Source: a virus
Direction: 5' to 3' (one strand)
DNA length: 21,483 nt
Virus record (IMG/VR): IMGVR_UViG_3300035698_004628
Location: 1 to 21,483 of that record
A program made the position numbers and the translations under genes. Positions 1 to 21,161 of the stretch are shown here, piece after piece. The notes beneath the pieces are model-generated. The model did not search any database. It had not been told where the DNA came from and worked only from the letters and a program-made list of their open reading frames with translations. The stretch's first letter is position 1, and the number at the start of each line of letters is the position of its first letter.

Positions 1-522
1 AGAAGACCCAGACTACTAGAAAATATCATATCAGATGGGACATTGTCATATGATGATCGTCATAATGAATCCATATTGTTAGGAAGAATAGAAAATCCTA
101 CTCAAGATAGAAATAGAACACGACATGATTGGAGTACGTGTATATCATTATTCAATATGCCCAAAACAAATACAGCATATCCATACACACAAGAGGAATA
201 CCTATATAAAGTAAAATCGTCAAAATTTGGTTTAACATTACCAGGATACGGACCAAAATGCAACAGAGAAATTGAATTAATGGGTCTTGGAACAGTTCCA
301 ATTATTACCCCTAATGTTGAAACTAGATATTACGATCCATTAGAGCGGGATAGACATTATCTTGTTGCTAATTCACCAGCAGAAGTTATAGAATGTATTG
401 CAAGTTGTTCAAAAAATAAATGGGAAATCATGTCAAACGAGTGTAAATTATGGTACAATAGAAATTGTTCACGTTTGGGATCATTTAAAACCACTATGCG
501 AATAATAGGAGAACATCAATGA
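1..522 (+). CDS. Exostosin-like glycosyltransferase, C-terminal part (5' end outside window)
   Basis: The frame is open from base 1 to a TGA at 520-522, so the visible 173 residues are the C-terminal part of a longer protein. A TTG at 43 could be read as a start, but the frame is open upstream of it and it has no clear ribosome binding site, so a truncated gene is preferred. The stretch GLTLPGYGPKCNREIELMGL, followed by GTVPIITP, matches the shape of the nucleotide-sugar-binding part of exostosin/GT47-type and related GT-B transferases: a glycine-rich turn, a conserved Arg-Glu pair and a G-x-(I/V)-P-(I/V) strand. It would transfer a sugar in glycan assembly. Its stop overlaps the next start as ATGA, placing it in the cassette operon. 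The family call comes from motif shape; the acceptor and sugar are unknown. Confidence 0.6.
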   Translation, partial: RRPRLLENIISDGTLSYDDRHNESILLGRIENPTQDRNRTRHDWSTCISLFNMPKTNTAYPYTQEEYLYKVKSSKFGLTLPGYGPKCNREIELMGLGTVPIITPNVETRYYDPLERDRHYLVANSPAEVIECIASCSKNKWEIMSNECKLWYNRNCSRLGSFKTTMRIIGEHQ

Positions 523-1232
523 ACAGAACTGCAATAATGTTTACAGGTACGTGTAGGAGTCTACAATACACCCACACGAACATTAATGAGTTCTTAATAA
601 ATCCAATAGAAAACTGTGATGTATTTATGCTTATAGCAAAAACCGAACATGCTTCTAATGTAAGTCTATTTCTTAATATTCCTCAAGTTAAACTGATATC
701 AATAGAAAATGAACCAGATTATGATACTAGCGGTTATAGATTTATACCTGGATTCCCACCACCTACATGCACACCACAAATTTATTCTAAAATGATCAAT
801 CAAAGAAAGAAGGCTAATTTAATGTTAGAATCCTATGAAGCTACTAATAATGTTACATATGATAGGGTTATATTTTCAAGATTGGATGTAAAATACTTCT
901 ATTCTGTTAAGCCACATATTGATAACTTGGATATGAATACTCTATATGTACCAGATTTTCATAACACCTTTGGTGGTGTGGTAAATGGTTATAATGATAG
1001 ATTTGCAATTAGTAATAGAAAAAATATGGCAGCATATTTTAATCTTGTGGATTCAATTAACGGCTTCATATCGGAAGGTAATCTTATTTCGCCAGAGGCG
1101 CTTTTAAAATGGAGTATCACAAGAAGCAAAATCGCAGTTGGACATATACCAGTACGGTTTGGTAGAGTCAGACAAGATGGGTCAGAAATAGATCTAAGAT
1201 TAAAGAGTAATATATCTAGAAGGGATAGTTAA
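519..1232 (+). CDS. Glycosyltransferase-like protein of the glycan cassette
   Basis: A 237-residue protein starting at an ATG that overlaps the previous stop (ATGA), with an AGGAGA ribosome binding site 6 nt upstream at 507-512. The N-terminus (IMFTGTCRSL) is a beta strand followed by a G-x-x-R-S turn, as in small glycosyltransferases that begin 'sGqlR'. Near residues 115-125 is YDRVIFSRLDVKY, which resembles the R-x-D segment of GT-A-like enzymes. A later segment, DFHNTFGGVVNGYNDRFAIS (about 145-165), looks like an acceptor/metal-binding loop. There is no signal peptide or membrane helix. I recognise it as resembling uncharacterised glycosyltransferase-like proteins of phages and large viruses, but cannot name a characterised family member. 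Its place in the cassette supports a glycan role. Confidence 0.5.
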   Translation: MNRTAIMFTGTCRSLQYTHTNINEFLINPIENCDVFMLIAKTEHASNVSLFLNIPQVKLISIENEPDYDTSGYRFIPGFPPPTCTPQIYSKMINQRKKANLMLESYEATNNVTYDRVIFSRLDVKYFYSVKPHIDNLDMNTLYVPDFHNTFGGVVNGYNDRFAISNRKNMAAYFNLVDSINGFISEGNLISPEALLKWSITRSKIAVGHIPVRFGRVRQDGSEIDLRLKSNISRRDS

Positions 1233-2074
1233 TGAAAACACATAAAGTATTAGTATTGGGATCGTCTGGTCAAATAGGCGCACCGTTGGTCGAATATTTA
1301 GAAACACAAGGTCTGGATGTTCGAACGTTTGATATTGCAAGTAACACAATAGAAGATCTTAGAATACGAGACAATAAGATACTTAAAACTCATATCAATG
1401 AAAGTGACTTTATATTCTTTTTGGCATTTGATGTTGGTGGTGCCAAGTATTTATATAAGAATCAACATACATATAATTTTATAGATAACAATATAAGGAT
1501 TATGGCTAATACATTTGAAATATTAAAAGAATTAGGAACTCCATTTATATTCGTTAGTAGTCAGATGGCGGATATGATAGAATCCACTTATGGTGTATTA
1601 AAAACAATTGGGGAACGATACACTAATTCTATTGGTGGGTTGAATGTAAAATTATGGAATGTATATGGACTGGAAACTGAATCTGAACGGTCACATGTCA
1701 TAACAGATTTTATTATACAAGCAAAAACTACTAAAAAAATTGAAATGATGACCGATGGGGAGGAGATTCGACAACTGTTACATGTTGATGATTTCTCTGC
1801 TTGTATGTTTACCCTATACAATGAGTATTATAATCTCGACAGGAACAAACCATATCACATTTCATCGTTTGCATGGGTTTCTATATTAGATGTGGCCAAT
1901 GAGGTTGCTTCCAACTTTGATAATGTTACAATTATACCATCAGATACGGGAGATGTTGTACATAATGGATGGAAGATAGAACCAGATACCCATATAACAA
2001 CGTATTGGAACCCAAAAATTACATTAACTGATGGTATTAAAGATATAATAAAAGGGATGAATGCTAATGAATAA
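1232..2074 (+). CDS. NAD-dependent epimerase/dehydratase (extended SDR)
   Basis: A 280-residue extended short-chain dehydrogenase/reductase. The N-terminal Rossmann motif GSSGQIG (residues 10-16) binds NAD(P). The SDR catalytic elements are present: Ser109/Ser110 at the end of the strand FIFVSS and Tyr120-x3-Lys124 in STYGVLK. A V-Y-G motif (NVYGLE) follows at the usual distance. The family acts on nucleotide-diphosphate sugars as 4-epimerase, 4,6-dehydratase or reductase; which one cannot be told here. Length is slightly under the usual 300-330 residues but the fold appears complete. The start overlaps the previous stop (TAATG), with AAGGGA just upstream. It probably supplies or converts a sugar nucleotide for the neighbouring transferases. 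Confidence 0.8.
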   Translation: MKTHKVLVLGSSGQIGAPLVEYLETQGLDVRTFDIASNTIEDLRIRDNKILKTHINESDFIFFLAFDVGGAKYLYKNQHTYNFIDNNIRIMANTFEILKELGTPFIFVSSQMADMIESTYGVLKTIGERYTNSIGGLNVKLWNVYGLETESERSHVITDFIIQAKTTKKIEMMTDGEEIRQLLHVDDFSACMFTLYNEYYNLDRNKPYHISSFAWVSILDVANEVASNFDNVTIIPSDTGDVVHNGWKIEPDTHITTYWNPKITLTDGIKDIIKGMNANE

Positions 2075-2681
2075 TCCAGTAGATTCAATAATAGATATTA
2101 CACTAAAAAACATATGGGATACTGATGAACATTTAATGACATTATTCGGGTTAACATTATCTATGAAACCAACAAATGTAATAGAGTTAGGAGTTAGAAC
2201 GTGTAGAACCACACTCCCCTTTTTATATGCTTGCAAGCTGATTGGTGCCAAATTAACATCAGTTGATATAAACAATATAAAACCAGATTTTACGTTTCCC
2301 GAAGACTGGAAAGCAAATTGGCAATTTATAAAAAAGGACGCTATAGCATTTTTGAAAGACGAGTATCCTAATATACGAAGTAACGGTGATATAATTTATA
2401 TAGATGATTTGCATACTGGGGATCATGTTAGGAATGAACTATCAGTATTATCCGAACTTGTTTCGCCATTAGACTTGATAGTTCTACATGATTTAATGTA
2501 TGGAAATTCACAACCAAATTATAGATCTGTGGAACATGCACCAAATACCCAATGGGATACTGGTGGACCATATAAACCAGTATCCGAATTAGATTTGGAT
2601 ACGTGGGAATATATGACAATTCCTAGATGCCATGGGTTAACCCTTCTACGCAAAACATCGGATACAATAATAAGGACATGA
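2061..2681 (+). CDS. Class I SAM-dependent methyltransferase
   Basis: A 206-residue protein. The motif VIELGVRTCRTTLPF (about residues 40-54) is the glycine-containing SAM-binding loop of class I methyltransferases, followed by the acidic end of strand 2 (TSVDIN). A later IIYIDDLHTG and a histidine-aspartate strand end (IVLHDLM) resemble the Methyltransf_24-type enzymes often found in surface-polysaccharide loci. It overlaps the SDR gene by 14 nt. A second in-frame ATG at 2067 gives a start two residues shorter; the AAAGGG at 2051-2056 could serve either. Substrate unknown; modification of a sugar or the glycan end is inferred from context. Confidence 0.7.
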   Translation: MLMNNPVDSIIDITLKNIWDTDEHLMTLFGLTLSMKPTNVIELGVRTCRTTLPFLYACKLIGAKLTSVDINNIKPDFTFPEDWKANWQFIKKDAIAFLKDEYPNIRSNGDIIYIDDLHTGDHVRNELSVLSELVSPLDLIVLHDLMYGNSQPNYRSVEHAPNTQWDTGGPYKPVSELDLDTWEYMTIPRCHGLTLLRKTSDTIIRT

Positions 2682-3430
2682 AGCCTATTATAACATTGAA
2701 TGAAACTCTATTAGAGTTGGTTAAAGATAAGCGTATTGCTCTTATAGGACCAGCGCCGTATCTTATTGGTATGAAATCAGGAAGAGTTATAGATTCATAT
2801 GATGTTATTTGTAGACCAAACGAGGTCATACCACAAATAAATGTTCGTAATGATTATGGCAGTAAAACTGATATACTGTTTTGTAATTTTGGAACTCCGT
2901 GGATGCGGGGAATAACAGGCAGAATAGATTTAGAAGACGGAAAGGAGCATTTCAAATCTCTTAAGCTTGTAATTGGGAGTGCAATAAAATCTGATCATTC
3001 TGAGGTTAACTTTTTGGGCTGGCCAGATACTTATGTGAGTAATGTAGTTAAAAATTTTGAGAGTATAAATGAATTTAATCTGCCATTTTATTGGATAGGT
3101 ATCAAAGACTATAAGATATTATACAATAAAATTGGAGTAGAATTTAATACAGGTGTAGCTGCTATTACAATATTACTCCAATATCCAATAAAAGAGTTAT
3201 TTATATCTGGATTTACCTTTTATAGTTGTGGAAAGCGATATAATGATATATATCGAGAAGGTTATATAGATGATATTGATAAACGTATAATATTTAAAAA
3301 TGGTGAAACTGGCGGGCATGGAGCCAACGCTATAAGTAAGCAAATAAGCTATTTCAAGAATATGCTAATTAGATATAACAAAAAAATAAAAATTGATGAC
3401 AAAATGAAGAACATATTAGGAATATTATGA
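2678..3430 (+). CDS. GT29-like (sialyltransferase family) glycosyltransferase
   Basis: About 250 residues. I start it at the ATG at 2678, which overlaps the previous stop as ATGA and follows AAGGA; an in-frame ATG at 2627 would extend it by 17 residues but has no ribosome binding site. The N-terminal block IALIGPAPYLIG, then GRVIDSYDVICRPNE, then YGSKTDILF follows the sialyl motif L pattern of GT29 (V-G-x-S...IDSxDxVxRxN...GSKT). The segment EFNTGVAAITILL with LFISGFTFY resembles sialyl motif S (TG...L...Y-GF). A conserved His (GGHGANA) lies near the C-terminus. GT29 enzymes use CMP-sialic acid, which fits the NeuB and cytidylyltransferase genes of the same operon. No membrane anchor is visible. 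The family call is fairly firm; the acceptor is unknown. Confidence 0.7.
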   Translation: MKPIITLNETLLELVKDKRIALIGPAPYLIGMKSGRVIDSYDVICRPNEVIPQINVRNDYGSKTDILFCNFGTPWMRGITGRIDLEDGKEHFKSLKLVIGSAIKSDHSEVNFLGWPDTYVSNVVKNFESINEFNLPFYWIGIKDYKILYNKIGVEFNTGVAAITILLQYPIKELFISGFTFYSCGKRYNDIYREGYIDDIDKRIIFKNGETGGHGANAISKQISYFKNMLIRYNKKIKIDDKMKNILGIL

Positions 3431-4272
3431 ATACATTTTCTTGTTATAATTGTGGCAGTACAAATTATACTGTAGTGGCAGATTCAAATGAAATTAGATT
3501 TAATTGTTATGGTTATGATAAGCAATTTGTGAAATGTGGTAGTTGTAGTCTAGTACAACTATTTCCTATGTGGGACGATACTATACTAAATTCGTTATAT
3601 TCCCAGTATAGTAATAAAAAAGATTTCAAATCATATAAACCAAAAAGGGAAACACGAAAATATATCAAACGGTTTATATCAGCAGATTCTAAAGCATTAG
3701 AAATTGGCTGCGGTCGAGGTGATACGGTAACTTGGCTTAATAGCAGGGGGTATGATGTTATTGGTGTAGATCGAGATCCAACCGTATCATCTGATATTAT
3801 ATCGACGCATACGTATCAAATGTATACCACTAGTGATACGTTCGATTTTATATTTGCAATACACGTACTTGAGCATATAAAAGATCCACGATCCTTTATA
3901 AAAAAGGCGGTATCTATGTTAACACCAAACGGCAATATGCTATTTGAAATACCAAACATTGACGACCCATTATTAACGATTTATAAAGTCAAGGAATTTT
4001 CCTCCTTTTTTTGGTATCCATATCATTTATATAACTACAGTCCTAGCACAATAATAAGCGTTTTAGACAATAGTTATTTTAGAAATGATATTATAGTAAA
4101 AATAGAATTAAAACAACGATATGGTATATTGAATCACTTGTATTGGAAATTATTCAAAGCCCCAAGCAATATAACATTTAATATACCGATAATAGACTAT
4201 TTTTATAAGTTGTTTTTAACAAAAATAATGAAAAAGAGTGACACTATATTAGTTTCTATATGGAGAAAATAA
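3427..4272 (+). CDS. SAM-dependent methyltransferase with N-terminal zinc-binding motif
   Basis: A 281-residue protein. The N-terminus carries two CxxC pairs (Cys6/Cys9 and Cys37/Cys40) that probably bind zinc, as in sugar C- or O-methyltransferases with a zinc-ribbon head. SAM motif I is LEIGCGRGDT (residues 91-100), followed by the acidic strand end VIGVDRD and the strand-4 motif FDFIFAIHVLEHIKDP, typical of Methyltransf_23-type enzymes. A hydrophobic, aromatic C-terminal region (about 185-280) follows. The start overlaps the previous stop (ATGA) with AGGAA upstream; the next gene begins immediately after the stop. Likely a sugar or glycan methyltransferase; the target is not visible. Confidence 0.8.
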   Translation: MNTFSCYNCGSTNYTVVADSNEIRFNCYGYDKQFVKCGSCSLVQLFPMWDDTILNSLYSQYSNKKDFKSYKPKRETRKYIKRFISADSKALEIGCGRGDTVTWLNSRGYDVIGVDRDPTVSSDIISTHTYQMYTTSDTFDFIFAIHVLEHIKDPRSFIKKAVSMLTPNGNMLFEIPNIDDPLLTIYKVKEFSSFFWYPYHLYNYSPSTIISVLDNSYFRNDIIVKIELKQRYGILNHLYWKLFKAPSNITFNIPIIDYFYKLFLTKIMKKSDTILVSIWRK

Positions 4273-5031
4273 ATGAATGGAGTATTCATAACAGTTAGAA
4301 GCGCGTCCACTAGATTACCACAAAAATGTTTACTTGAAATAGACGGAGTAAAAAATATAGCACGTCTTATCAAGAGATTATCAAAATCTAAAGAAGCAGA
4401 TATGATAATTCTATGCACTACTACCAATAAGGAAGATGATATATTATGTGAAATCGCAACGGAAGAGGGTATAAAATATTTCCGTGGTAGTGAAAATGAT
4501 AAACTGGATCGGTGGTATGGAGCAGCAAAGAAATATGGCATAGACGTTGTCGTAACCGCAGATGGTGATGACTTATTTTGTGAGCCGATATTAATAGATA
4601 TGGCATTTAGACAAATACATGAACATGGGTGCCATTTTATTGAAGAAAACCCCGGCGCATCGGTCCCTATAGGAGCGTTTACATATGCCTTTAGGGTAAA
4701 TGCTCTTAATAAAGTGTGTCAGATAAAGGATTCTGTTGAAACTGAAATGATGTCAGTATATTTTACTGATACTGGATTGTTTTACGTTGAACCATTATAC
4801 AATATACCCGAAGAGTTTAATAGACCAGAGATTAGAATGACGTTAGACTACGAAGATGACCTAAAATTTTTTACCAATATAATCGAAAATATAAACTTGA
4901 AAAGGTTTACCCTTTATGATATAATATTGTATCTGGATAAGAATCCAGAAGTTATTAAGATAAACCAATATCTTACAGAAATTTATTTGGATAATCAACG
5001 GCAAAATACTACACTAAAAATAAAAGAATAA
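4273..5031 (+). CDS. SpsF/CMP-sugar-type cytidylyltransferase
   Basis: A 252-residue nucleotidyltransferase. The N-terminal strand is followed by the signature R9-x2-STRLPQK18, the CTP-binding loop of the cytidylyltransferase/SpsF family. Next come IILCTTTNKEDD, the segment FRGSENDKLDRWYGAA (the family's 'frGs-d-vl-Ry--aa') and an acidic site VVVTADGDDLFCEP. The enzyme would couple CTP to a sugar acid to give a CMP-sugar. With NeuB and a GT29-like transferase in the same operon, a CMP-nonulosonate is the most likely product (inference). It starts directly after the preceding stop with GGAGAAAA upstream, and its own stop overlaps the next start (TAATG). It is shorter and more SpsF-like than classical NeuA. 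Confidence 0.75.
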   Translation: MNGVFITVRSASTRLPQKCLLEIDGVKNIARLIKRLSKSKEADMIILCTTTNKEDDILCEIATEEGIKYFRGSENDKLDRWYGAAKKYGIDVVVTADGDDLFCEPILIDMAFRQIHEHGCHFIEENPGASVPIGAFTYAFRVNALNKVCQIKDSVETEMMSVYFTDTGLFYVEPLYNIPEEFNRPEIRMTLDYEDDLKFFTNIIENINLKRFTLYDIILYLDKNPEVIKINQYLTEIYLDNQRQNTTLKIKE

Positions 5032-6218
5032 TGAAAAACCCAACAAAATATTTTGGAAATGAAGAAAAGTATATCAGACAGGTTCTTAATTCAGAAGATT
5101 GGTCCTCTACATCTGGTAGTTGGAATATAAAATTAGAACAAGAATTTGCTAAACGATTTGGATCTAAGTATGCTGTGGCGTTTAATTCTGGAACATCCAC
5201 AATACACGCATCACTAAAGGCCGCTGGTATCAAACCAGGAGACCAGGTAATATCCCCAGCATTGACTGTTATAATGGACACCACAGCAACCCTCCATGCT
5301 AATGCTATTCCAGTATATGCTGATATAGATCCAAATACATTCCTAATGGATATTAATGATGTTGAGAAAAAGATAAACAATAAAACAAAAGCCATAATTG
5401 TGGTTTCGCTTTACGGATTAACCGTGGACATGGGTGCAATAAATAAATTAGCAAAGAAATATAATCTAATAGTAATAGAAGATAATGCCCAATGTGTTTC
5501 TAACAATCTATCTGGAGACATAGCAAGTTTTAGTTTTGAAAATACAAAACATATTTCATGCGGGGAGGGTGGAATAATTACTACCGACAATGAAGAGTAT
5601 GCAGAGATGGCCAGAAAGATTGGTGGTCATGGATTTAAAAATCTAAAGGCTGATGAGGGACGAGTTAGACTTCGTCAAGACATCTTCCAGAGTCCAACTT
5701 ATAAGCGACATGACGTTCTTGGGTGGAATTATCGACTATCAGAGTTTAGTGCTGCTATAGCACTAGCACAACTCGAAAATTTAGACAATCTAATACATCT
5801 TAGGGTAGAATCTGCAACTGCGTTTATAGACGTAATGGAAGGCTGTGACTATCTAACCCCACAGATTATACCAGATGGTCATAAAAATTCATATTATACC
5901 CTTGGTGTATTATATGATGGTTATGAACGCATTGGTGTTTCGTGGGAAGATTTCCGAAAGGAGTATATACAACAAGGTGGCGATGGAATATACGGTGCAT
6001 GGTCAGTTCCGTATCTAGAACCAGTGATGGTTAACCGTGCATTTGTTGATATATATCCAGAAGTATATAAAGATGTGTCGTATACTGCTGGAATATGCCC
6101 AGTAGCGGAGAATGTACAACGACGATTAATGCAATTTAAGACTAACTATCGAGATGTAGAACTCGCAAAACAACGGGCAGAGTGTTTACGAACTACTATA
6201 AAGAAAGTAGGAAGATAA
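5031..6218 (+). CDS. DegT/DnrJ/EryC1/StrS-family PLP aminotransferase
   Basis: A 395-residue sugar aminotransferase. Visible family features are SGSWNIKLEQEFAKRFGSKY near the N-terminus, the cofactor phosphate-binding region AFNSGTSTIHASLKA (50-64), the PLP-ring aspartate in VIEDNAQC (Asp151) and the Schiff-base lysine in FSFENTKHISCGEGG (Lys173). Length matches the family (370-400). These enzymes transaminate keto-sugars on nucleotide diphosphates. Here the enzyme would make an amino-sugar precursor of the cassette's final sugar. The C-terminal third (YGAWSVPYLEPVM) also fits. Start and stop both overlap neighbours as TAATG, so translation is probably coupled. The exact keto-sugar substrate is unknown. 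Confidence 0.88.
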   Translation: MKNPTKYFGNEEKYIRQVLNSEDWSSTSGSWNIKLEQEFAKRFGSKYAVAFNSGTSTIHASLKAAGIKPGDQVISPALTVIMDTTATLHANAIPVYADIDPNTFLMDINDVEKKINNKTKAIIVVSLYGLTVDMGAINKLAKKYNLIVIEDNAQCVSNNLSGDIASFSFENTKHISCGEGGIITTDNEEYAEMARKIGGHGFKNLKADEGRVRLRQDIFQSPTYKRHDVLGWNYRLSEFSAAIALAQLENLDNLIHLRVESATAFIDVMEGCDYLTPQIIPDGHKNSYYTLGVLYDGYERIGVSWEDFRKEYIQQGGDGIYGAWSVPYLEPVMVNRAFVDIYPEVYKDVSYTAGICPVAENVQRRLMQFKTNYRDVELAKQRAECLRTTIKKVGR

Positions 6219-7285
6219 TGTTTGATATACGATTTTATGAAGATATACATAACATAAAAGGGGATGTTATTGCGGGGAAACTAACCGATAAAGATCTTCT
6301 TATCGCTAGGTTTGATGATTTAAGAAGAAATTCACCAATAGTATATAACATCGAAACCACAAATGCCTGTAATATGAAATGTAAGATGTGTCCTAGAACT
6401 ACCATGATGACAAGATCTATAGAAACTATGGATCAGTCTATATTTTCGGACGTAGTAGATCAACTAACTCCATTTTCTGATAATGAATGGAACCGATGGA
6501 AGACATTTGTAGAAAATACATACAATATAATGGAAGATGATATGTCAGAAAACCACTTCTTTCTATATATTATCCCAAAAGTAATTCAACTTCATGGATA
6601 TGGCGATCCCCTTCTAGATAAATATATTATAGATCGTGTTAAAAAAATATCTGATAGTGGGTTTAATTCATATTTCAGTTGTAACCCAGCTAACTTATGT
6701 GTTGACAAGACAGAGAGACTAATGGATAATGGATTATCATATATAAAATACTCAATTGAAAGTGTTAACGATGATCACCATAAAAAAATCCGTGGCGATG
6801 CATCTAATTTCTCTGAAAGTTATCATAAAATATTACAGGTATTAGATCTTAAGAGACAACATGAGTATGATACAACAGTAGTTATAACAATGTTAGACCT
6901 TAATAATGATAAACAGAAAGAAGAGTACGATGCTCTAACAGAAGCATTTAAAGATTTAGATGTATACATATATTTAAAAAGTCAAGATCAACAATGGTAT
7001 GATGATAAAGACTACCACGGAACAAATTCTATACATTGGTCTGAAATTTGTAAGCATCCATGGATGTCAATGACAATAAAATCGGATGGTAGTGCTGCGA
7101 TGTGCATGGAAGATTACAATAATGAAATAGTATTGGGTAATACCAAATCTAATAGTTTATATGAGATATGGAATGGTGAAAAATACAAACAATTCAGATT
7201 GGACCACTTTAATTCGTCACAAAATATAAAATGTACAGGAGAATGTGATATGAAAATTATAGGGAAATATTTAAATGAACTTTAA
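6218..7285 (+). CDS. Radical SAM protein with C-terminal SPASM-like domain
   Basis: 355 residues from the ATG at 6218, which overlaps the previous stop (TAATG) and has AGGAAG upstream; an in-frame upstream ATG at 6182 lies inside the aminotransferase and is rejected. The radical SAM cluster motif C51-NMK-C55-KM-C58 is intact and preceded by the strand VYNIETTNAC. The C-terminus has CKHPWMSMTIKSDGSAAMC and a pair of cysteines in CTGEC, the arrangement of a SPASM/twitch domain that binds an auxiliary iron-sulfur cluster. An insertion of about 45 residues (roughly 75-120) lies between the cluster loop and the HGYGDPLLDK strand. Radical SAM/SPASM proteins of this type occur in surface-sugar loci, where they may epimerise or dehydrogenate sugars. 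The reaction here cannot be assigned. Confidence 0.85.
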   Translation: MFDIRFYEDIHNIKGDVIAGKLTDKDLLIARFDDLRRNSPIVYNIETTNACNMKCKMCPRTTMMTRSIETMDQSIFSDVVDQLTPFSDNEWNRWKTFVENTYNIMEDDMSENHFFLYIIPKVIQLHGYGDPLLDKYIIDRVKKISDSGFNSYFSCNPANLCVDKTERLMDNGLSYIKYSIESVNDDHHKKIRGDASNFSESYHKILQVLDLKRQHEYDTTVVITMLDLNNDKQKEEYDALTEAFKDLDVYIYLKSQDQQWYDDKDYHGTNSIHWSEICKHPWMSMTIKSDGSAAMCMEDYNNEIVLGNTKSNSLYEIWNGEKYKQFRLDHFNSSQNIKCTGECDMKIIGKYLNEL

Positions 7286-8123
7286 TAAACTAACAAAACC
7301 ATATATGATTGCTGAAATTGGAATAAACCATAATGGGAATATGAAAACTACAAAACGCCTATTAGATGCTACCTTCGCATGTAGTTGGGACTGTGCAAAA
7401 TTTCAGAAAAGAAATCCTGATATAGCAGTTCCAGAACACCAAAAAAATGTAGAAAAGGATACCCCTTGGGGAGTAATGACGTATTTGGAATATAAAAAAC
7501 GAATAGAGTTCAGTAAAGACGAGTATAATATCATAAATGGTTATTGTGTCAAGAAACCATTGGACTGGACTGCTAGTATATGGGATATTGATAGTCTAGA
7601 ATTTATTAACGAATATGATGTACCATTTATAAAAATACCATCTGCAATGATAACTAATACTGAATTATTATATAACGCGGCAAAGACTAATATTCCAATA
7701 ATTATATCTACTGGTATGAGTACACTAAAAGAGATTGATAATGCAGTTTCAATATTAGAAGAACATGCAAGTCAGTTAGCAATATTACACTGTAATTCAT
7801 CATATCCAGCAGACCCGAAAGAACTTAATCTACGAATGATAGAGACACTTAGTAAACGATATGGACATACCGTTGGGTACAGTGGTCATGAATATGGATT
7901 AGATTCAACCACTATAGCAGTTAGTATGGGTGCTATGATAATAGAGCGTCACATAACAGTAGATCGTAATATGTGGGGAACTGATCAATCAGCCAGTGTT
8001 GAAATACAAGGTATGGATAAGTTGTATAAACAAGTACAATCAGTAGGAGACTGTATAGGAGATGGTGTTAAATTTGTAACCAATGCAGAAAAGTTAATCA
8101 AAAATAAGTTACGGGGCATATGA
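7275..8123 (+). CDS. neuB: NeuB-type nonulosonate (sialic-acid-like) synthase, no SAF domain
   Basis: A 282-residue TIM-barrel synthase that would condense phosphoenolpyruvate with an N-acetyl-hexosamine to form a nine-carbon sugar acid. Seen in order: AEIGINHNGN (13-22), AKFQKRNPD, PFIKIPSAMITNTELL, IISTGMSTLKE, ILHCNSSYPADPKELNL, VGYSGHEYGL, GAMIIERHITVD and WGTDQSAS, all family landmarks. It stops at NKLRGI, where canonical NeuB enzymes (about 340-350 residues) go on into the SAF/antifreeze-like domain; that domain is absent. Some loops differ from classical NeuB (SGH for SDH, TDQ for the usual PDH). It overlaps the radical SAM gene by 11 nt, with AGGGA upstream, and is the last gene of the cassette. 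Confidence 0.85.
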   Translation: MNFNKLTKPYMIAEIGINHNGNMKTTKRLLDATFACSWDCAKFQKRNPDIAVPEHQKNVEKDTPWGVMTYLEYKKRIEFSKDEYNIINGYCVKKPLDWTASIWDIDSLEFINEYDVPFIKIPSAMITNTELLYNAAKTNIPIIISTGMSTLKEIDNAVSILEEHASQLAILHCNSSYPADPKELNLRMIETLSKRYGHTVGYSGHEYGLDSTTIAVSMGAMIIERHITVDRNMWGTDQSASVEIQGMDKLYKQVQSVGDCIGDGVKFVTNAEKLIKNKLRGI

Positions 8124-8240: not shown

Positions 8241-9281
8241 ATGAAAACATATACTTTTAATGACGTACTAATAGAGCCAGCATATTCTGAAATTCGGTCT
8301 AGAAAATCTATTGATATACGCACCATGTTAGGTGAGAAGGTACTTAGAGTGCCAGTGATTTCAGCTAACATGAAAACTATAACAGGCCCACGTATGGCTG
8401 CTGAGATGTGCAACCGTGGAGCAATCGGAGCACTACACAGGTTCAACACCATTGAAGGTGCAGTTAAAGATTTTCAAGATACAAAAGACGATATAGACTT
8501 TGTATTATGTACTAGTTCAAAAACCATTGAGAGTAAACAAAAGGAGTGTGCATTTGTTTCTATAGGTGTTAATGGTGACCACAAAGAACGCTTCGCTGCA
8601 CTCTATGATGCAGGAGCAAGATACTTTTGTATTGATATCGCTCATGGTCACAGCATCATGATGAAAGAAACAATAGAATTTATCAAAAGCCAACAGTCTG
8701 ATATTTATATGATGGCAGGAAATGTTGCAACAGAAAAGGGATATAAAGACCTTAGTTGTTGGGGAGCGGATGCTGTTAAGATTGGTATTGGGCCTGGGTC
8801 TATGTGCCAGACGAGAACAAATACAGGAGTAGGTGTTCCTCAACTATGGGCATTAGAGAAGATTAGAACCACCAGAGGACAGCATACTGCAAGTATAGTT
8901 GCTGATGGTGGAATTAAGACCATTGGTGACATTGCCAAGGCATTCAAATATGCTGACGCTGTTATGCTAGGTTCATTCTTTGCAGGTTCAATGGAAACTC
9001 CAGGCTGTGTCTACAAACGTAAAGATGGTACTAGATATAAAGTTTATGGTGGTTCAGCCGCAGGAGATAACAAAGGTAATGGTGAAGAAAAGCCAGAATT
9101 TGTTGAAGGTGTAACAGAAGAAGTTCAGCTAGGTGACCATGTAAAATTCCTACTACGAGAAATCAGAGAAGGTATACAATCTGCCTGTTCCTATGTTGGT
9201 GCAAATAACCTAAGAGAGTTTAAAAAGAAATGTATATTCAATCAGATTAGTGGTGCTGGTAAAGAGGAAAGCAAACTGTAA
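8241..9281 (+). CDS. IMP dehydrogenase / GMP reductase family protein, no CBS domains
   Basis: 346 residues from the ATG at 8241. A TTG at 8193 would add 16 residues, but that stretch is the promoter and is rejected. The barrel shows TFNDVLIEPAYSEIRSRKS at the N-terminus, SANMKTITG, the nucleotide-phosphate and catalytic loop KIGIGPGSMC (Cys189) followed by TRTNTGVGVPQL, VADGGIKTIGDIAKA, and a C-terminal SACSYVGANNL. Cys189 is the family's nucleophile. There is no CBS insertion, and the length matches GMP reductases (about 345), while the flap region (EFVEGVTEEV) is not diagnostic. IMPDH would make XMP and GMPR would make IMP from GMP; either adjusts the purine pool during infection. It has its own promoter and follows the cassette without being coupled to it. 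Confidence 0.85.
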   Translation: MKTYTFNDVLIEPAYSEIRSRKSIDIRTMLGEKVLRVPVISANMKTITGPRMAAEMCNRGAIGALHRFNTIEGAVKDFQDTKDDIDFVLCTSSKTIESKQKECAFVSIGVNGDHKERFAALYDAGARYFCIDIAHGHSIMMKETIEFIKSQQSDIYMMAGNVATEKGYKDLSCWGADAVKIGIGPGSMCQTRTNTGVGVPQLWALEKIRTTRGQHTASIVADGGIKTIGDIAKAFKYADAVMLGSFFAGSMETPGCVYKRKDGTRYKVYGGSAAGDNKGNGEEKPEFVEGVTEEVQLGDHVKFLLREIREGIQSACSYVGANNLREFKKKCIFNQISGAGKEESKL

Positions 9282-9326: not shown

Positions 9327-9506
9327 ATGGCGACTAAAGAAACACAAGAGTTACTAATAGAAGCGTTAACCTTCTATATGAATAGCATCAGTGAAGCGAT
9401 TAAGAACGTTCCAGAAGATGCTAATCTAGATATTGACGCAATGAGGAAGCTAATAAAGCTTGACGATATTAAAATTGGACTGGAGAAGAAAGGTAATGAA
9501 GAATAA
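9327..9506 (+). CDS. Hypothetical 59-residue acidic helical protein
   Basis: A small protein starting at ATG 9327 behind a good AAGGAG site. It is rich in Glu/Asp/Lys and Leu/Ile, with no Cys, no membrane segment and a likely all-helical fold (two amphipathic stretches, TQELLIEALTFYMNSISEAI and DIDAMRKLIKLDDIKIGLEK). It overlaps the next gene by 11 nt. No family is recognised. The strong ribosome binding site and the coupling make it a real gene; its role is unknown. Confidence 0.65.
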   Translation: MATKETQELLIEALTFYMNSISEAIKNVPEDANLDIDAMRKLIKLDDIKIGLEKKGNEE

Positions 9507-10302
9507 AATTCTGGTATTGGGGAAGGGATACCTCGGAACGGAATTTGAACGTCATGGCTTTGAGACATGGGGAAAAGATAAATTCAGGATAAATTATCCA
9601 GAAGGAACCGTTTCAGGAATTCAATTAGATGAGTTAAGAAAATATGATGCAGTAGTAAATTGTATAGGCAAATCTAATACAAGGTGGTGTGAAGATAAAG
9701 AAAACTTTAAAGAGGCATTATTTGTAAACGGAACATTGCCAGGAATACTAAGCAAGTTTTGTAAGCGGAATAAGATAAGGTTTGCTCATATTTCGACTGG
9801 TTGTTTGTATGATAATACAAACAAGTCTAACGATGAAGATTCCTTTATGGCTGCACACTGTAACTATACAGCAACTAAATGGGCTGGTGAGGGTTCATGT
9901 GATGTTGATAGTGATCTGATCATTCGTCCGAGATTATTGTTTAGTGATGTACTAGATAGAAACAATCTATTATATAAGCTGCCAAATTTTACTACCTATA
10001 CAGGAGATAAACTAGATAGCTTTACTTGTACATCCACTATAGTTGGTGCAACAAAAGAGTTGATTCAACATGATCAATGTGGTATATTTAATGTATCACA
10101 AATTGGTTCAGCAACCATAGCTAGATTAGCTCATTGGTGTGACTTGCCGATTAAGGGTGTTAATACAGCAGAGCAGTTAAGAAGTCGAGAAGGTCTATAT
10201 CTTGTAAACAATGTTATGAACATAAATAAACTAATGAAGTTTTATACACCAACTAATATAGAAACAGCGATAAAGTTATCATATGCTGAACTCAATAAAT
10301 AA
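9496..10302 (+). CDS. RmlD-like NAD(P)-dependent sugar reductase (extended SDR)
   Basis: 268 residues from ATG 9496, which overlaps the previous gene; an upstream in-frame ATG at 9460 lies inside that gene and would place an unrelated 12-residue tail before the Rossmann strand, so it is rejected. ILVLGKGYLG (5-14) is the nucleotide-binding loop. VVNCIGKSNTRWCE resembles the RmlD strand 'vvNaAa-t-vd-aE', Ser100/Thr101 sit in HISTGCLYD, and Tyr124-x3-Lys128 in YTATK completes the catalytic triad. RmlD_sub_bind proteins reduce dTDP-4-keto-sugars, for example in dTDP-rhamnose synthesis. No RmlA, B or C is present in this window, so substrate supply would have to come from the host or another phage locus. 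It lies between a purine enzyme and gp46, apart from the main glycan cassette. Confidence 0.75.
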   Translation: MKNKILVLGKGYLGTEFERHGFETWGKDKFRINYPEGTVSGIQLDELRKYDAVVNCIGKSNTRWCEDKENFKEALFVNGTLPGILSKFCKRNKIRFAHISTGCLYDNTNKSNDEDSFMAAHCNYTATKWAGEGSCDVDSDLIIRPRLLFSDVLDRNNLLYKLPNFTTYTGDKLDSFTCTSTIVGATKELIQHDQCGIFNVSQIGSATIARLAHWCDLPIKGVNTAEQLRSREGLYLVNNVMNINKLMKFYTPTNIETAIKLSYAELNK

Positions 10303-10474
10303 AGAAGAATTTGTAGTACATACAAATATACCAGAGCAAATACGTGATCTTCAGTTTAATGATGAAGCATTTAGTGATGTGATAGATGCACTAGCTAATA
10401 GTTCTACATTATCTGAGGCCGAGTCTGCTGTAAATTTTGCATTTGAACAGAGTATATTTTTAAGGAATTTATGA
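10283..10474 (+). CDS. Hypothetical 63-residue protein upstream of gp46
   Basis: A short acidic ORF (63 residues) overlapping the end of the SDR gene by 20 nt and ending in an ATGA overlap with gp46. The ribosome binding site is weak, so it may depend on translational coupling to the upstream gene. Predicted largely helical (FNDEAFSDVIDALA, LSEAESAVNFAFEQ); no motif or family recognised. The overlap on both sides is the main support for it being real. Confidence 0.55.
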   Translation: MLNSINKEEFVVHTNIPEQIRDLQFNDEAFSDVIDALANSSTLSEAESAVNFAFEQSIFLRNL

Positions 10475-12273
10475 AACAAGTAAAATTCAAAACAATGGAG
10501 ATTGAAAATTTTCTTAGCGTAGGAAATGAAACCGTATCAATCAATTTCAAGACTGGGCTTAATATCATAACTGGTATTAACCACGATAAAGAAGATTCTA
10601 AAAATGGTGTGGGTAAGTCCACCATAGCTGACGCACTATTCTTTTGTCTATTTGGCACAACAATACGAGAACTCAAGAAGGAAGAAATCGTTAACAATAT
10701 TAACGAGAAGAAATGTAGAGTTAAGTTAGCGTTTTCGGTTACTGATAATTCAGTAGTAACAGAGTATATGCTAGAGAGAAAGATATTACCAAACAAGGTT
10801 TATTTAGAAATAGACGGAGTAGATGCGACAGAATCTTCAATGCCTAAAACTACAGAAGAAGTTTGTAGAATAATTGGGGCAACACCAGAAGTATTCAAAA
10901 ATGCTGTAATTATGACTGTCAACGGAACTATTCCGTTCATGGCTCAGAAAAAGGTAGAGAAGAGAAAGTTCTGCGAAGGGCTTTTTGATCTTGGTGTCTT
11001 CCAGGATATGCTTCTTGAGGGTAGAAAACGTTATAACGAAATCAATACCGAAATATCAATAGAGACTACAAAATTAGATGAGGTTACAAATACCTTATAC
11101 ATATATGTTAACCAACAGAATCGTAAAGATGAATATAGAACAGGGCGTAAGAATAAACTTCTAGAAAGGGAAACATCAAATGTTGCCGAATTGAAGGAGC
11201 TTGAGGGCACCCTTAAAGAGGTTACTGGTGAAAATATAGATGACTTCAAAGCTAATATATCACTATTAGAAAAGAAAAAGACTACTGTTCAAGATGATAT
11301 TCGCAGACAAGTCAGAAACATAGCCACGAAAGAAGAGAAGATTAACACTAAGAAGGTTGATATATCTAAGCTTAAAGAGTTTGGTGATATGTGTGATAAG
11401 TGTAAGCGTCCATTTACAGTAGATGATATAAAATCTAGGGATGAGAAGATTGCGGCTGTGTTGGAAGAGATAAAAACTATAGAAGTTGCAATTGAAGATA
11501 ACACAAAAACACAGGAAAACTTTGAAGACTTAAAACTAAAATGTAGCAAGGCCATTGATAAACAGAAAGATAATATCACTGAACTAAATAATAGTGTAAC
11601 GCATAATAAGAATGTTGCGGATAGAATAGAGCAACTTAATGTCTGGAATAAACAGATTAAAGTTGATATAGAAGCGTTAGAAGAGGATAAAGACGAATTT
11701 GAGGGGTTAATAACCGATACTAAGAAACGATCCAATACTCTAAATCAAACTATAGAAAAGTTGAAGACCAGGCTATATATTTTAGAGTCTGTTAAACATA
11801 TTGTTTCAGAAGAAGGTGTTAAATCGTTCATCATTAAAAAGCTATTGAAGATACTGAACGGAAAACTTGCATACTATCTAGTTAAGCTAGATGCACCATG
11901 TAGGTTCAAATTTAATGAGTACTTTGGCGAACAGATTATAAACGATAAGGGGCAAGAGTGTTCATATAACAATTTCTCAAGCGGTGAACGCAAGAGAATT
12001 GACTTAGCAATATTGTTTACATTTATGGATATCAGGAGATTACAGGGAAATACATCTCTAAATGTAGCATTTTATGATGAGATATTAGATACAAGTTTAG
12101 ATGATAAGGGAATAGAATGTTTCTTAGAAATATTGAATGAAAGAATAGAAAAATATGATGAGGCCTGTTACATAATAAGTCACAAAGCAACTGCTATGAA
12201 AGCAGCCACTAACGATGTTATATTTTTAGAAAAGAAAGATGGGTTCACCACCGTAGGTGAGTGTAAAGATTAA
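10471..12273 (+). CDS. 46: Recombination endonuclease subunit gp46 (Rad50/SbcC-like ATPase)
   Basis: A 600-residue SMC-type ATPase, a little longer than T4 gp46 (560). The Walker A region is ITGINHDKEDSKNGVGKST, with GKS at residues 48-50 and several extra residues between the first glycine and NG compared with T4. Coiled-coil arms flank a zinc-hook motif C308-DK-C311. The ABC signature NFSSGERKRIDLA lies near residue 510, followed by Walker B AFYDEILD and the His switch YIISHKA. In T4, gp46 works with the nuclease gp47 to resect DNA ends for recombination-dependent replication. No gp47-like gene is in the window. AAGGA lies 4 nt before the ATG, and the start overlaps the preceding stop (ATGA). 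Confidence 0.93.
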   Translation: MKQVKFKTMEIENFLSVGNETVSINFKTGLNIITGINHDKEDSKNGVGKSTIADALFFCLFGTTIRELKKEEIVNNINEKKCRVKLAFSVTDNSVVTEYMLERKILPNKVYLEIDGVDATESSMPKTTEEVCRIIGATPEVFKNAVIMTVNGTIPFMAQKKVEKRKFCEGLFDLGVFQDMLLEGRKRYNEINTEISIETTKLDEVTNTLYIYVNQQNRKDEYRTGRKNKLLERETSNVAELKELEGTLKEVTGENIDDFKANISLLEKKKTTVQDDIRRQVRNIATKEEKINTKKVDISKLKEFGDMCDKCKRPFTVDDIKSRDEKIAAVLEEIKTIEVAIEDNTKTQENFEDLKLKCSKAIDKQKDNITELNNSVTHNKNVADRIEQLNVWNKQIKVDIEALEEDKDEFEGLITDTKKRSNTLNQTIEKLKTRLYILESVKHIVSEEGVKSFIIKKLLKILNGKLAYYLVKLDAPCRFKFNEYFGEQIINDKGQECSYNNFSSGERKRIDLAILFTFMDIRRLQGNTSLNVAFYDEILDTSLDDKGIECFLEILNERIEKYDEACYIISHKATAMKAATNDVIFLEKKDGFTTVGECKD

Positions 12274-12282: not shown

Positions 12283-13590
12283 ATGCCAAAGTTCAAAATG
12301 CCTATACAACAGGCACCACAAGTTCAACCACAACAGCCACAGCAACCAGGAGTTGCATATACACCACAAAACCTTGGAGTACCATTTGCACCACTAGGAA
12401 TGCCAATGGGTATTCCACAGACTACAGTAGTCGGACAACAGAGAGTTGGAGGCGGAGCACCACCTTTGCCTATGCCAGGAGCAAACCTTAAACGTGCAGT
12501 TAATTACTATGCTGATTATGGTGGTTGTGGCTTTTGGAGAATGGTATGGCCTGAGCTTTTGATGAATGGTAACCAAATAGCAATTATTAATGGGCTAACA
12601 ACTATGGTACTTGATGGAAGATTCTATCAGGGACTTAATGCAGTTAGGTTACAGCGTCAGGCAACACCTGTACAGCTAGAGTTTATGAAATTCCTCAAAG
12701 AAGGGGCTAAACAACTTGACTTCAAGATAATTTATGAGATTGATGATATTATCTTTAAAGATGATATACCAGATTTTAATAGATGCAAGGTTGCATTTGA
12801 ATCAGAAGAAATTCTTCAAAGTGCACTAGCTATTATGCAAGCAGCAGATGAAATTTCTGTTACTTGTGAATACATGAAGGATTATTATCGTCATAAAACA
12901 GGAAACCAAAATATTAGCGTGGTTCCTAATATGGCACCTAAAATGTGGACAGAAGGATTTTATGATAAAAAGCGTCTTATGGAAAACTTCGATAAGCAGA
13001 AGAAGCGTCCAAGGATTGGTTATTGTGGGTCTGGAACTCATGTTGATGTTACCAACAGAACTGGACAGCAAGATGACTTCACACATATTGTAAAACAGAT
13101 TATTGCTACTAGAAAGGATTACAAGTGGGTAATGATGGGGTGTTATCCATTGCCACTTAAACCGTTTATTGATAGCGGAGAAATTGAATACGCACAGTGG
13201 GCATCGTTCATTAACTATCCACAAGCTATGCATGACCTGAATCTTACTGCAACAATTGCTCCATTGATGGATTGTCATTTCAATAAGGCTAAAAGTAATA
13301 TCAAGTTTCTAGAAGCTGCATATCAGGGGCTTCCAGGTGTCTATCAGGATCTGGTAACATATAAAGATGCACCACTCAGATTTAAAAGTGGTGATGATAT
13401 GGTAGACCAACTAAAGAGGTTGGTAAAGGATCAATCCTATTACATGAAGGTATCTAAAGATAGTAGAGCATATGCAGATACAATGTGGTTAGATGATCAT
13501 ATTGACCAGTATTTGGAACTATATTTTACTAACTATGGTGATCCAAAGCGTAAAACATTGCTTGAATATAATCCTGAACAAAAGATATAA
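12283..13590 (+). CDS. GT-B-fold glycosyltransferase (GT4-like) with Pro/Gln-rich N-terminus
   Basis: A 435-residue protein. Residues 1-65 are low complexity and probably disordered (runs such as QVQPQQPQQPG, then Gly/Pro/Met-rich). From about 67 there is a GT-B-like N-lobe containing YYADYGGCGFWRM, VRLQRQATP and IIYEIDDIIF, then a C-lobe beginning RPRIGYCGSGTHVDV, with WVMMGCYPLPL, and the donor-site helix NKAKSNIKFLEAAYQGLPGV that is typical of GT1/GT4 enzymes. It should transfer a sugar from a nucleotide donor; donor and acceptor are unknown. It sits between gp46 and gp43, not in the glycan cassette, so it may act on DNA or a virion protein (inference). A good ribosome binding site lies 5 nt upstream. 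Confidence 0.75.
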   Translation: MPKFKMPIQQAPQVQPQQPQQPGVAYTPQNLGVPFAPLGMPMGIPQTTVVGQQRVGGGAPPLPMPGANLKRAVNYYADYGGCGFWRMVWPELLMNGNQIAIINGLTTMVLDGRFYQGLNAVRLQRQATPVQLEFMKFLKEGAKQLDFKIIYEIDDIIFKDDIPDFNRCKVAFESEEILQSALAIMQAADEISVTCEYMKDYYRHKTGNQNISVVPNMAPKMWTEGFYDKKRLMENFDKQKKRPRIGYCGSGTHVDVTNRTGQQDDFTHIVKQIIATRKDYKWVMMGCYPLPLKPFIDSGEIEYAQWASFINYPQAMHDLNLTATIAPLMDCHFNKAKSNIKFLEAAYQGLPGVYQDLVTYKDAPLRFKSGDDMVDQLKRLVKDQSYYMKVSKDSRAYADTMWLDDHIDQYLELYFTNYGDPKRKTLLEYNPEQKI

Positions 13591-14235: not shown

Positions 14236-14513
14236 TGGCGGATTATAAAAAAGTAGGTATCGATATAATGGAGAATGGATATACGGTAACCGTTATCAAT
14301 TCTAAAAACCATACAAAGGGAAAACAATTTGTATTTGATAATGCCAAGAAGATGCGAAAATGGCTTCAAGACAACCTATCAGCTACAGGAGAAGTAGAAA
14401 GATTCTCAGAAGCTCTTGACAATAATGATGAAAATGATACTATGACATTTACTGGGCAATCAAATCCAGTAAGCAATATAGGTCTCGGCTTACCAACACA
14501 AGGCGTAGTTTAA
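14235..14513 (+). CDS. Hypothetical protein, second of a paralogous pair
   Basis: 92 residues, with AAGGAG at 14221-14226, 8 nt before the ATG. The first half (DIMENGYTVTV, KQFVFDNAKKMRKWLQDNLS) shares the pattern (D/E)NG(F/Y) ... FVF-x-N ... KW(M/L)x-DN with the compact domain of the preceding protein. The second half is acidic, then Gly/Pro-rich, and probably flexible. It ends in a TAATG overlap with DNA polymerase, so its translation may set polymerase expression. No function known; constant company with gp43 would suggest a replication accessory role, which is only inference. Confidence 0.65.
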   Translation: MADYKKVGIDIMENGYTVTVINSKNHTKGKQFVFDNAKKMRKWLQDNLSATGEVERFSEALDNNDENDTMTFTGQSNPVSNIGLGLPTQGVV

Positions 14514-17576: not shown

Positions 17577-18710
17577 ATGGGTAAACAAGAAATACCAGCA
17601 GGATTAAAAGATGCGTTCAAATCTCTAAACAAAATGAATACAGACAGTACTATTCTTTCAGAGAATGCATTGTCTGTAGTTAATGAGTATATTGATACTG
17701 GTTCAATGGCACTTAATGCCATAGTTTCTGGTACATTAACTGGTGGTGTTCCTAAAGGCCGAATTACTGGACTAGTCGGCCCAACAGGTTCTGGAAAGAC
17801 GCTTATTCTTAATAAGATAATTGCTAATGCTCAGAAGTCAGACTCAGATGTTTGGGGTGTCGTATGGGATACAGAAAATGCATACGATCCACAGATGGCA
17901 ATCAATGTAGGTGCTAATCCAGATAGGATTAAAGTAAATCCTGTTGCAACGGTTGAGGAATGCCGAAACCAAATAGCAACGTTCTTGGATGGCATCATTG
18001 TTGACCCTTCTCTTCATGGTAAAATAGTGATTGGTATTGACTCACTAGGAAACCTGGCATCTGCAAAAGAAATTGCTGATGCTGAAAAGGGAAAGAATGC
18101 AGTTGATATGGGAATGAGGGCTAAGTCTCTCAAGAGCATGATGCGTGTTCTTACTCATAAGTGTGCAAAGGCCAATGCTACATTGCTCTTTACAAACCAC
18201 ATCTATGATGATCCTGCGTGTATGTTCCCATCTTTGGTCAAAAGCCAAGCTGGTGGAAAGGGCCCATTGTATCTTGCATCACTGCTTATACAGTTGGCTG
18301 TAACACAGGAAAAGATGGAATCAACAGGAGAGAAGGAAAAGTTTATTCCAATGGCAAATAGAGTCAAGGGTGTAAATCTTAGAGCACTTACTGTAAAAAA
18401 TAGATTCGTACCACCGTTTCTTGAGACAAGCATGTATCTTAATTTCAAAACAGGATTATACAAATACTCAGGTTTACTTGAAATGGCTGAGGCATATGAT
18501 ATTGTTAAGAGAGAAGGCAATACTTATGTAAGTCAATCTGGAGAGAGGCTTGGATTTAAGAAAGCTTTCCGTGACAGTACAGAACTTTGGGAAGAACATA
18601 TTATTCCCAATCTAGATATAGCACTACAGAAAGACTTGGTGTTCAGTACGGAAGCTGAGCGTCTAGCTGTTGAGGTTGAGGAGTTGGAAGATGAAAAAAC
18701 GGACGAGTAA
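17577..18710 (+). CDS. uvsX: UvsX RecA-like recombinase
   Basis: 377 residues, close to T4 UvsX (about 390). Walker A is GPTGSGKT (68-75), Walker B is KIVIGIDSLGNL (Asp155), and WDTENAYD (98-105) holds the catalytic-glutamate region. The L2-like segment after ATLLFTNHIYDDP and QAGGKGP also fits the family. UvsX forms filaments on single-stranded DNA and drives strand invasion for recombination-dependent replication and repair. AAGGAG at 17567-17572 lies 4 nt before the ATG. The C-terminus is strongly acidic (VEVEELEDEKTDE), as in other RecA-like proteins. Its end overlaps the next gene's start by 20 nt. Confidence 0.93.
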   Translation: MGKQEIPAGLKDAFKSLNKMNTDSTILSENALSVVNEYIDTGSMALNAIVSGTLTGGVPKGRITGLVGPTGSGKTLILNKIIANAQKSDSDVWGVVWDTENAYDPQMAINVGANPDRIKVNPVATVEECRNQIATFLDGIIVDPSLHGKIVIGIDSLGNLASAKEIADAEKGKNAVDMGMRAKSLKSMMRVLTHKCAKANATLLFTNHIYDDPACMFPSLVKSQAGGKGPLYLASLLIQLAVTQEKMESTGEKEKFIPMANRVKGVNLRALTVKNRFVPPFLETSMYLNFKTGLYKYSGLLEMAEAYDIVKREGNTYVSQSGERLGFKKAFRDSTELWEEHIIPNLDIALQKDLVFSTEAERLAVEVEELEDEKTDE

Positions 18711-21157: not shown

Positions 21158-21161
21158 CATG

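Follow-up and report, generated by a model that had tools for sequence, protein, structure and literature searches.

Known nonulosonate pathways and the phage cassette

The 2-keto-3-deoxynonulosonic acid (Kdn) and sialic acid pathways combine a phosphoenolpyruvate (PEP)-condensing synthase with a cytidylyltransferase, and the legionaminic and pseudaminic acid pathways combine a NeuB-family synthase with a DegT aminotransferase and a cytidylyltransferase. Among phages, the T4-like cyanophages P-SSM2, S-SSM7, and S-SM2 have large sugar and lipopolysaccharide (LPS) gene clusters inside the genome (PMC3037559). Each of these systems resembles in part the cassette described here, ten plus-strand genes (g01 to g10) that occupy positions 1 to 8123 of the IMG/VR virus record IMGVR_UViG_3300035698_004628. 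The record, a piece of a larger phage genome, was analyzed over its whole 21,483 bases (the window). Our reading is that the phage carries a pathway for a cytidine monophosphate (CMP)-activated, amino-substituted nonulosonate, a sialic acid-like sugar, and that this pathway combines an intact bacterial operon (g06 to g10) with a neighboring viral glycan block, and we put the probability of this reading, with the full working proposed below, at about 0.55.

The cassette differs from the Kdn and sialic acid pathways in its short NeuB without a SAF domain, in a cytidylyltransferase of the SpsF rather than the NeuA type, and in its additional radical S-adenosylmethionine (SAM) enzyme and aminotransferase; the phosphatase of those pathways has a counterpart in cellular relatives of the cassette. 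Unlike the legionaminic and pseudaminic acid pathways, the module is without a dehydratase, a hydrolyzing epimerase, and an N-acetyltransferase. It shares with the cyanophage LPS clusters the setting of a big sugar-gene cluster in a T4-like genome, but its NeuB type, SpsF, and radical SAM genes are rare or absent in phage records: among 50,697 such records, a NeuB of the window type occurs in three (one of them labeled Moritella viscosa), SpsF occurs in one, and the radical SAM protein occurs in none (tblastn). Scattered sugar genes are known from phages, whereas few of the phage records searched here have a near-complete route from synthase through CMP activation to transfer of a sialic acid-like sugar. 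A literature search with limited subscription coverage found no paper describing an SpsF-DegT-radical SAM-NeuB operon, which is weak evidence of absence; for phage NeuB or nonulosonate cassettes and for 8-amino-3,8-dideoxyoctulosonate (Kdo8N), it yielded nothing direct from a literature of which few subscription papers were covered.

The genes of the cassette are as follows.

1 to 522, plus strand: g01, C-terminal part of a GT47-like glycosyltransferase-like protein, cut by the contig end
519 to 1232, plus strand: g02, DUF7796 protein (Pfam, 7e-9)
1232 to 2074, plus strand: g03, extended short-chain dehydrogenase/reductase (SDR) of the nucleotide-sugar epimerase/reductase type (Pfam Epimerase, 1.1e-22)
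2061 to 2681, plus strand: g04, CmcI/rhamnosyl O-methyltransferase-like methyltransferase (Pfam Methyltransf_24, 3e-8; RMNT_CmcI, 6e-7)
2678 to 3430, plus strand: g05, GT29-like putative sialyltransferase with motif L only
3427 to 4272, plus strand: g06, SAM methyltransferase with an N-terminal CxxC region (Pfam Methyltransf_23, 3e-19), which opens the bacterial-type module
4273 to 5031, plus strand: g07, SpsF-like cytidylyltransferase (Pfam CTP_transf_3, 6.9e-16; 59.1 bits against a cutoff of 22.6)
5031 to 6218, plus strand: g08, DegT/DnrJ/EryC1 sugar aminotransferase (Pfam, 4.1e-71), with the pyridoxal phosphate (PLP)-lysine region present
6218 to 7285, plus strand: g09, radical SAM/Twitch protein, BtrN-like putative sugar dehydrogenase (Pfam Radical_SAM, 5.9e-11; SPASM, 1.4e-14)
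7275 to 8123, plus strand: g10, NeuB-family synthase, short form without a SAF domain, 282 amino acids (aa)

Neighboring genes overlap by 1 to 14 nucleotides (nt) at eight of these nine junctions and abut (0 nt) at the remaining one, in agreement with the ten-gene operon that an earlier note on this DNA had proposed. The Pfam matches likewise bear out its NeuB-type synthase, SpsF-type cytidylyltransferase, aminotransferase, radical SAM enzyme, SDR, and two methyltransferases, and these families, together with the gene neighborhoods described below, support its claim that the phage bears a cassette of the nonulosonate type in which synthesis, CMP activation, and, plausibly, transfer are represented.

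Synthase, cytidylyltransferase, and aminotransferase

Judged by its sequence, g10 belongs beyond doubt to the NeuB family. Its match to Pfam NeuB (PF03102; E = 1.7e-70, 237.7 bits against a cutoff of 22.1) runs from position 2 to position 241 of the 241-position profile. PEP- and metal-binding residues are conserved in the alignment (E14, K42, K120, S123, S145, H205, H226, and D237), and we take them to correspond to meningococcal Glu25, Lys53, Lys129, Ser132, Ser154, His215, His236, and Asp247. The closest solved structure, 6ncs, is likewise short (290 residues). Against TIGR03569 (NeuB_NnaB), the equivalog family of N-acetylneuraminate (Neu5Ac) synthase, g10 scores 238.5 bits and stays under the cutoff of 399.65 bits.

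The cytidylyltransferase g07 has an RxSxRxPxK-like N-terminal nucleotide motif (VRSASTRLPQK) as well as DGD, and its nearest PDB entry is 6oew (1.5e-20). For the aminotransferase g08, the best NCBIfam matches are PseC (5e-54, 183.6 bits against 423.5) and LegC (3e-50, 171.1 bits against 420), both under their cutoffs. Because g10 and g08 are both below equivalog cutoffs, a Neu5Ac, legionaminic acid, or pseudaminic acid identity is not assignable from these sequences.

A bacterial operon beside a viral block

Comparison with related loci (given L numbers here) indicates that the cassette is made of two modules, a bacterial operon (g06 to g10) and a viral glycan block (g01, g02, g03, and g05). 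Cellular operons collinear with the former (L021, L022, L024, L030, L052, and L054) have 45 to 68% identity to the window proteins. In L030, from an Omnitrophota metagenome-assembled genome, the order is a KdsC-like haloacid dehalogenase-type protein (HAD), methyltransferase, SpsF, DegT, radical SAM protein, B12-binding radical SAM protein, and NeuB, with identities of 47% for g06, 61% for SpsF, 66% for DegT, 56% for the radical SAM protein, and 65 to 68% for NeuB, which has a break there. The Bacteroidales locus L021, the locus L024 from an uncultured archaeon, and L054 have SpsF, DegT, radical SAM, and NeuB genes with no g06 at that place; L052 is a rearranged version, and in the Margulisiibacteriota locus L022, DegT-radical SAM-NeuB stands at a contig edge. 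DegT (g08) reaches 65 to 68% identity in L021, L022, and L030. The short-NeuB operons L021, L022, L024, and L030 share the SpsF-DegT-radical SAM-NeuB order of the window at 50 to 68% identity (from DegT onward in L022, and with g06 in L030) but differ from it in that several add a KdsC-like HAD and some add a B12-binding radical SAM protein, both of which are absent from the window. The KdsC-like HADs adjoin core genes in L021 and L030, and the core genes of L021, L022, and L030 are neither interrupted nor directly flanked by a gene for a 4,6-dehydratase, an acetyltransferase, or a hydrolyzing epimerase.

On the viral side, contigs L039 and L040 hold homologues of g01, g02, g03, and g05 together (48%, 30%, 44%, and 54% identity), adjoining a NeuB gene (40%) and a CTP_transf_3 cytidylyltransferase gene, and in L038, g03-g02-g05 homologues are followed by an SpsF homologue. 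Marine viral modules usually have the order SpsF, aminotransferase (DegT or class IV), SDR, NeuB, and small HAD; a class-IV aminotransferase may stand in the place of DegT in some of them, and their SDR sits where the window has the radical SAM gene (L036 has both). The unannotated SpsF-DegT-NeuB-HAD run in the single-cell genome of Marine virus AG-345-L05 (MH319754.1, Kyanoviridae; L019 10116 to 13142) has 43 to 45% identity to the window proteins but is without a radical SAM gene and belongs to a different NeuB clade.

In the NeuB tree, the window sequence groups with five sequences from cells at 99/89 support, outside a marine viral clade of 14 members (97/92), and for this reason the window pathway appears to have been acquired intact and separately. 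The virus label requires at least five changes on the starred branches of the tree, which together with this placement suggests that these NeuB modules were transferred between cells and viruses on several occasions. Enzyme families, catalytic residues, the conserved operon, and the separate acquisition are what the sequences themselves show.

The strongest alternative, which we consider unlikely, is a conventional pathway of the legionaminic or pseudaminic acid type, in which g08 would act as LegC or PseC on a UDP- or GDP-4-keto-hexose supplied by a dehydratase that the host, or another part of the phage genome, encodes and g09 would make a separate side modification. PseC and LegC are indeed the top NCBIfam matches of g08, and in L055 and L056, a g09 relative (40 to 41% identity) stands with a NeuB that has a SAF domain, a NeuC-type epimerase, and a cytidylyltransferase; moreover, the window is a fragment, so absent genes may lie outside it. 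However, the scores are far under the equivalog cutoffs (184 of 424 bits and 171 of 420 bits), the cores of L021, L022, and L030 are without the three enzymes named above while KdsC-like HADs are present in L021 and L030, and a class-IV aminotransferase can replace DegT. Given the L055 and L056 neighborhoods, the g09 enzyme class is linked to nonulosonates whichever of the two precursor routes applies.

A BtrN-like radical SAM enzyme

Numbered from the ATG at 6218, the CX3CX2C motif of g09 consists of C51, C55, and C58, and the auxiliary cysteines are C278, C296, C339, and C343. All seven are invariant in a 12-sequence alignment, and the C-x17-C spacing among the auxiliary cysteines is as in BtrN. 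By this pattern, the four extra cysteines are assigned to a Twitch-type auxiliary site such as that of BtrN, an enzyme that carries out the two-electron oxidation of an aminocyclitol alcohol (PMC9012708). BtrN is also the top PDB profile match of g09 (6e-15, in three collinear segments) and its top Foldseek match (1.4e-8, from a model with a predicted template modeling score of 0.84), ahead of SkfB and DesII. From sequence and predicted fold, g09 appears to be a BtrN-like dehydrogenase that oxidizes a sugar. The two proteins are alike in being radical SAM enzymes with a four-cysteine Twitch domain and differ in that BtrN works on an aminocyclitol for an antibiotic, whereas g09, a longer protein, is associated with NeuB. 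In butirosin synthesis, the PLP aminotransferase BtrS acts next to BtrN. Genes of the g09 type are rare: among 285 genomes of the L030 phylum, 5 have one, as does 1 of the 395 genomes of the L021 phylum; such a gene is also present on three further IMG/VR contigs.

It is improbable, in our view, that g09 is instead a DesII-like lyase removing an amino group that DegT installs, with a deoxy-nonulosonate as the product. DesII structures occupy ranks 3 and 5 to 9 in the fold search, and the pairing of DegT with a radical SAM enzyme is compatible with elimination chemistry. Nevertheless, BtrN comes first by both profile and fold, the four auxiliary cysteines are invariant and have the BtrN-like spacing, and the SDR at the same place in viral relatives suits oxidation better than elimination.

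Large radical SAM proteins are also encoded beside SpsF, DegT, and NeuB genes at L030 8596 to 9984, L035 6237 to 7637 and 8668 to 10017, L004 5864 to 7561, and similar places. Those in L030 and L035 are B12-binding, and proteins of this group might methylate or rearrange the sugar.

The viral glycan block and a putative transferase

The truncated g01 has no Pfam match itself and is 48% identical to a 272-aa protein of L039 that matches Exostosin_GT47 at 3e-6, below the cutoff. Homologues of g02 (30%) adjoin GT29-like genes in L038 to L040. Where the earlier note counted two other glycosyltransferases in the cassette, g02 is a DUF7796 protein, and g01 keeps a GT47-like designation through its fuller L039 relative. 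The SDR g03 has both the GxxGxxG and the YxxxK motif, with homologues in L038 to L040 at 44 to 45%.

The match of g05 to Pfam Glyco_transf_29 spans 52 residues (20 to 71) and corresponds to sialylmotif L; outside this stretch, the protein has no family assignment. An hhalign comparison with authentic GT29 proteins of the jumbo phage LR756508 gave 6.5e-8 (94.6%). The predicted model of g05 is poor (predicted local distance difference test, 51.5); CstII and CstI lead its fold list at a weak E value of 0.004, which at this model confidence is a trend only. GT29-like genes adjoin those for NeuB and a cytidylyltransferase in L039 and L040 and the SpsF homologue in L038. A tblastn search of phage records with g05 gave no match, and when viral sequences were scanned again using the GT29-like alignment, no further loci appeared. 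By its motif, fold trend, and gene neighbors, g05 still looks sialyltransferase-like.

In the jumbo phage itself (LR756508.1; L020 11247 to 14661), the NeuB gene lies between two true GT29 genes and is separated from the second by a gene for a GIY-YIG domain protein.

Proposed pathway

We infer the order of reactions, the exact sugar, the acceptor, and the benefit to the phage along the following lines. NeuB (g10) would condense PEP with a host-supplied hexose or hexose phosphate. Before or after this step, the BtrN-like g09 would turn a hydroxyl into a ketone, which the DegT enzyme (g08) would aminate; this is the simplest reading because of the likeness to BtrN and the SDR swap at the same position. 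SpsF (g07) would produce the CMP-sugar, the GT29-like g05 would transfer it, and the two methyltransferases (g04 and g06) would modify the sugar. Since no flippase, polymerase, or exporter is seen in the cassette, a cytoplasmic acceptor is likely, and transfer would occur in the cytoplasm, onto virion proteins or a host glycan precursor. Virion decoration, a changed host surface, and a block on superinfection, the roles named in the earlier note, are all candidates.

The earlier note had pointed to a missing NeuC-type epimerase and had suggested the host or the SDR/radical SAM pair as the source of the precursor. NeuC is indeed absent from the window, but there may be no gap to fill. KdsC-like HADs are usual in cellular short-NeuB operons, which suggests by analogy a phosphorylated intermediate, a hexose phosphate from central metabolism; NeuC would therefore not be needed. 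Kdn synthesis from mannose 6-phosphate with a 9-phosphate phosphatase provides a precedent (PMC6200933). As for the SDR/radical SAM pair, g09 is BtrN-like, pairs with DegT, and is not obviously a precursor-making enzyme, and the SDR is in the other block.

Several observations weigh against the pathway as proposed. The position of meningococcal N184 is Ser in g10, and the SAF domain of canonical sialic acid synthases has no Pfam match there. The resemblance of g09 to BtrN peaks over 64 residues of the Twitch region, and by fold the DesII-type enzymes score nearly as well as BtrN. At E = 0.0012 and 18.8 bits, the Glyco_transf_29 match of g05 is below the cutoff of 23, and motif VS (H-x4-E) is not clear in its alignment; by the Pfam cutoff, strictly taken, g05 falls outside GT29, and what stands of the GT29-like transferase in the earlier note is the sialyltransferase-like character described above. 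Finally, the window has no HAD phosphatase, NeuC, or 4,6-dehydratase that would account for the substrate.

More tentatively, these modules could represent an undescribed nonulosonate branch. In it, a dehydrogenase (a BtrN-like radical SAM enzyme, or an SDR in marine viruses) and a PLP aminotransferase would add an amino group without the nucleotide-hexose dehydratase route, in company with a short, SAF-less NeuB and SpsF; the branch would be bacterial and taken up more than once by phages. The apparent radical SAM/SDR swap at one pathway position makes a concrete, testable prediction about the sugar chemistry, and a radical SAM route to sugar oxidation would be unusual and testable in its own right. 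The cassette also connects a poorly studied bacterial operon with phage-host surface interaction.

Phage setting and a probable glycan-gene hotspot

The remainder of the window contains the following genes.

8241 to 9281: IMP dehydrogenase/GMP reductase-like gene (Pfam, 1.7e-83), adjoining the cassette
9496 to 10302: RmlD-like SDR, between the cassette and gp46
10471 to 12273: gp46-like gene
12283 to 13590: 435-aa glycosyltransferase-like protein (phrog_7162), between gp46 and the polymerase
14513 to 17086: B-family DNA polymerase
17577 to 18710: UvsX
19166 to 20533: gp41/DnaB-like helicase
20528 to 21160, minus strand: endonuclease VII/HNH-like gene, the sole minus-strand gene

The gp46-like, polymerase, UvsX, and gp41/DnaB genes confirm the T4-type replication genes that had been noted beside the cassette. 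The polymerase has matches in 2,609 phage records, chiefly with T4-like hosts or names, at a best identity of about 30%. The full window, compared at the DNA level with phage records, gave no match, and PHROGs had no match for the NeuB, SpsF, GT29-like, or radical SAM proteins. Just over 100 nt separates g10 from the first ATG (8241) of the IMP dehydrogenase/GMP reductase-like gene. The RmlD-like SDR may be a further sugar gene, and the gene at 20528 to 21160 is probably a mobile endonuclease. The T4-type late-promoter motif TATAAATA has 3 matches against 4.8 expected and is uninformative.

In six contigs that belong to this phage lineage (polymerase identity, 42 to 45%), the order gp46-g16-polymerase-g20-UvsX-gp41 is shared as far as their length allows. 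Upstream of gp46, L062 (257 to 6791) and L063 (2599 to 5933) carry genes for GT47, a GT10 fucosyltransferase, GT25, epimerases, a transaldolase, and a GHMP kinase, and from these arrangements the site looks like a glycan-gene hotspot. Cargo at this site varies among distant phages of the lineage, as it would if g06 to g10 were passenger or "stuffer" DNA with no coherent product in infection, a role of which the cyanophage LPS clusters have been suspected (PMC3037559). We regard this as very improbable for the cassette: all ten frames are open and the checked catalytic residues are intact despite 32 to 44% divergence of g07 to g10 from their nearest bacterial relatives, the gene order is kept, and the GC content at third codon positions is low, as in phage genes. 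That the assembly is a chimera of bacterial and phage DNA is hardly credible, even with g06 to g10 closest to bacterial operons, as g01, g02, g03, and g05 belong to a viral block, the radical SAM gene recurs on the three other IMG/VR contigs, in the distant same-lineage phages of L062 and L063, different glycan genes take up this site next to gp46, and the junctions inside the cassette are continuous with an even GC content (0.30 to 0.37, against 0.33 to 0.40 elsewhere in the window).

Among the flanking genes, the phrog_7162 glycosyltransferase-like protein is kept at 51 to 58% identity in all six lineage relatives (L058 to L063). The IMP dehydrogenase/GMP reductase-like gene has homologues in 73 phage records, with top identities of about 34 to 39%, including those of Bacillus phage G and Microcystis phage Mel-JY01.

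Genes for long proteins, several of them interrelated, immediately follow the NeuB modules of marine viruses (L004 16582 to 20843, L013 15173 to 20840, and L005 7974 to 11852). Some are tail- or baseplate-like by eye, with no PHROG match, and they are not usable for an argument on virion decoration. Very divergent short NeuB paralogues (240 to 247 aa, 23 to 25% identity), followed by SDRs, are encoded at L007 7671 to 8393 and L009 7687 to 8430, where they share viral clusters with a normal NeuB.

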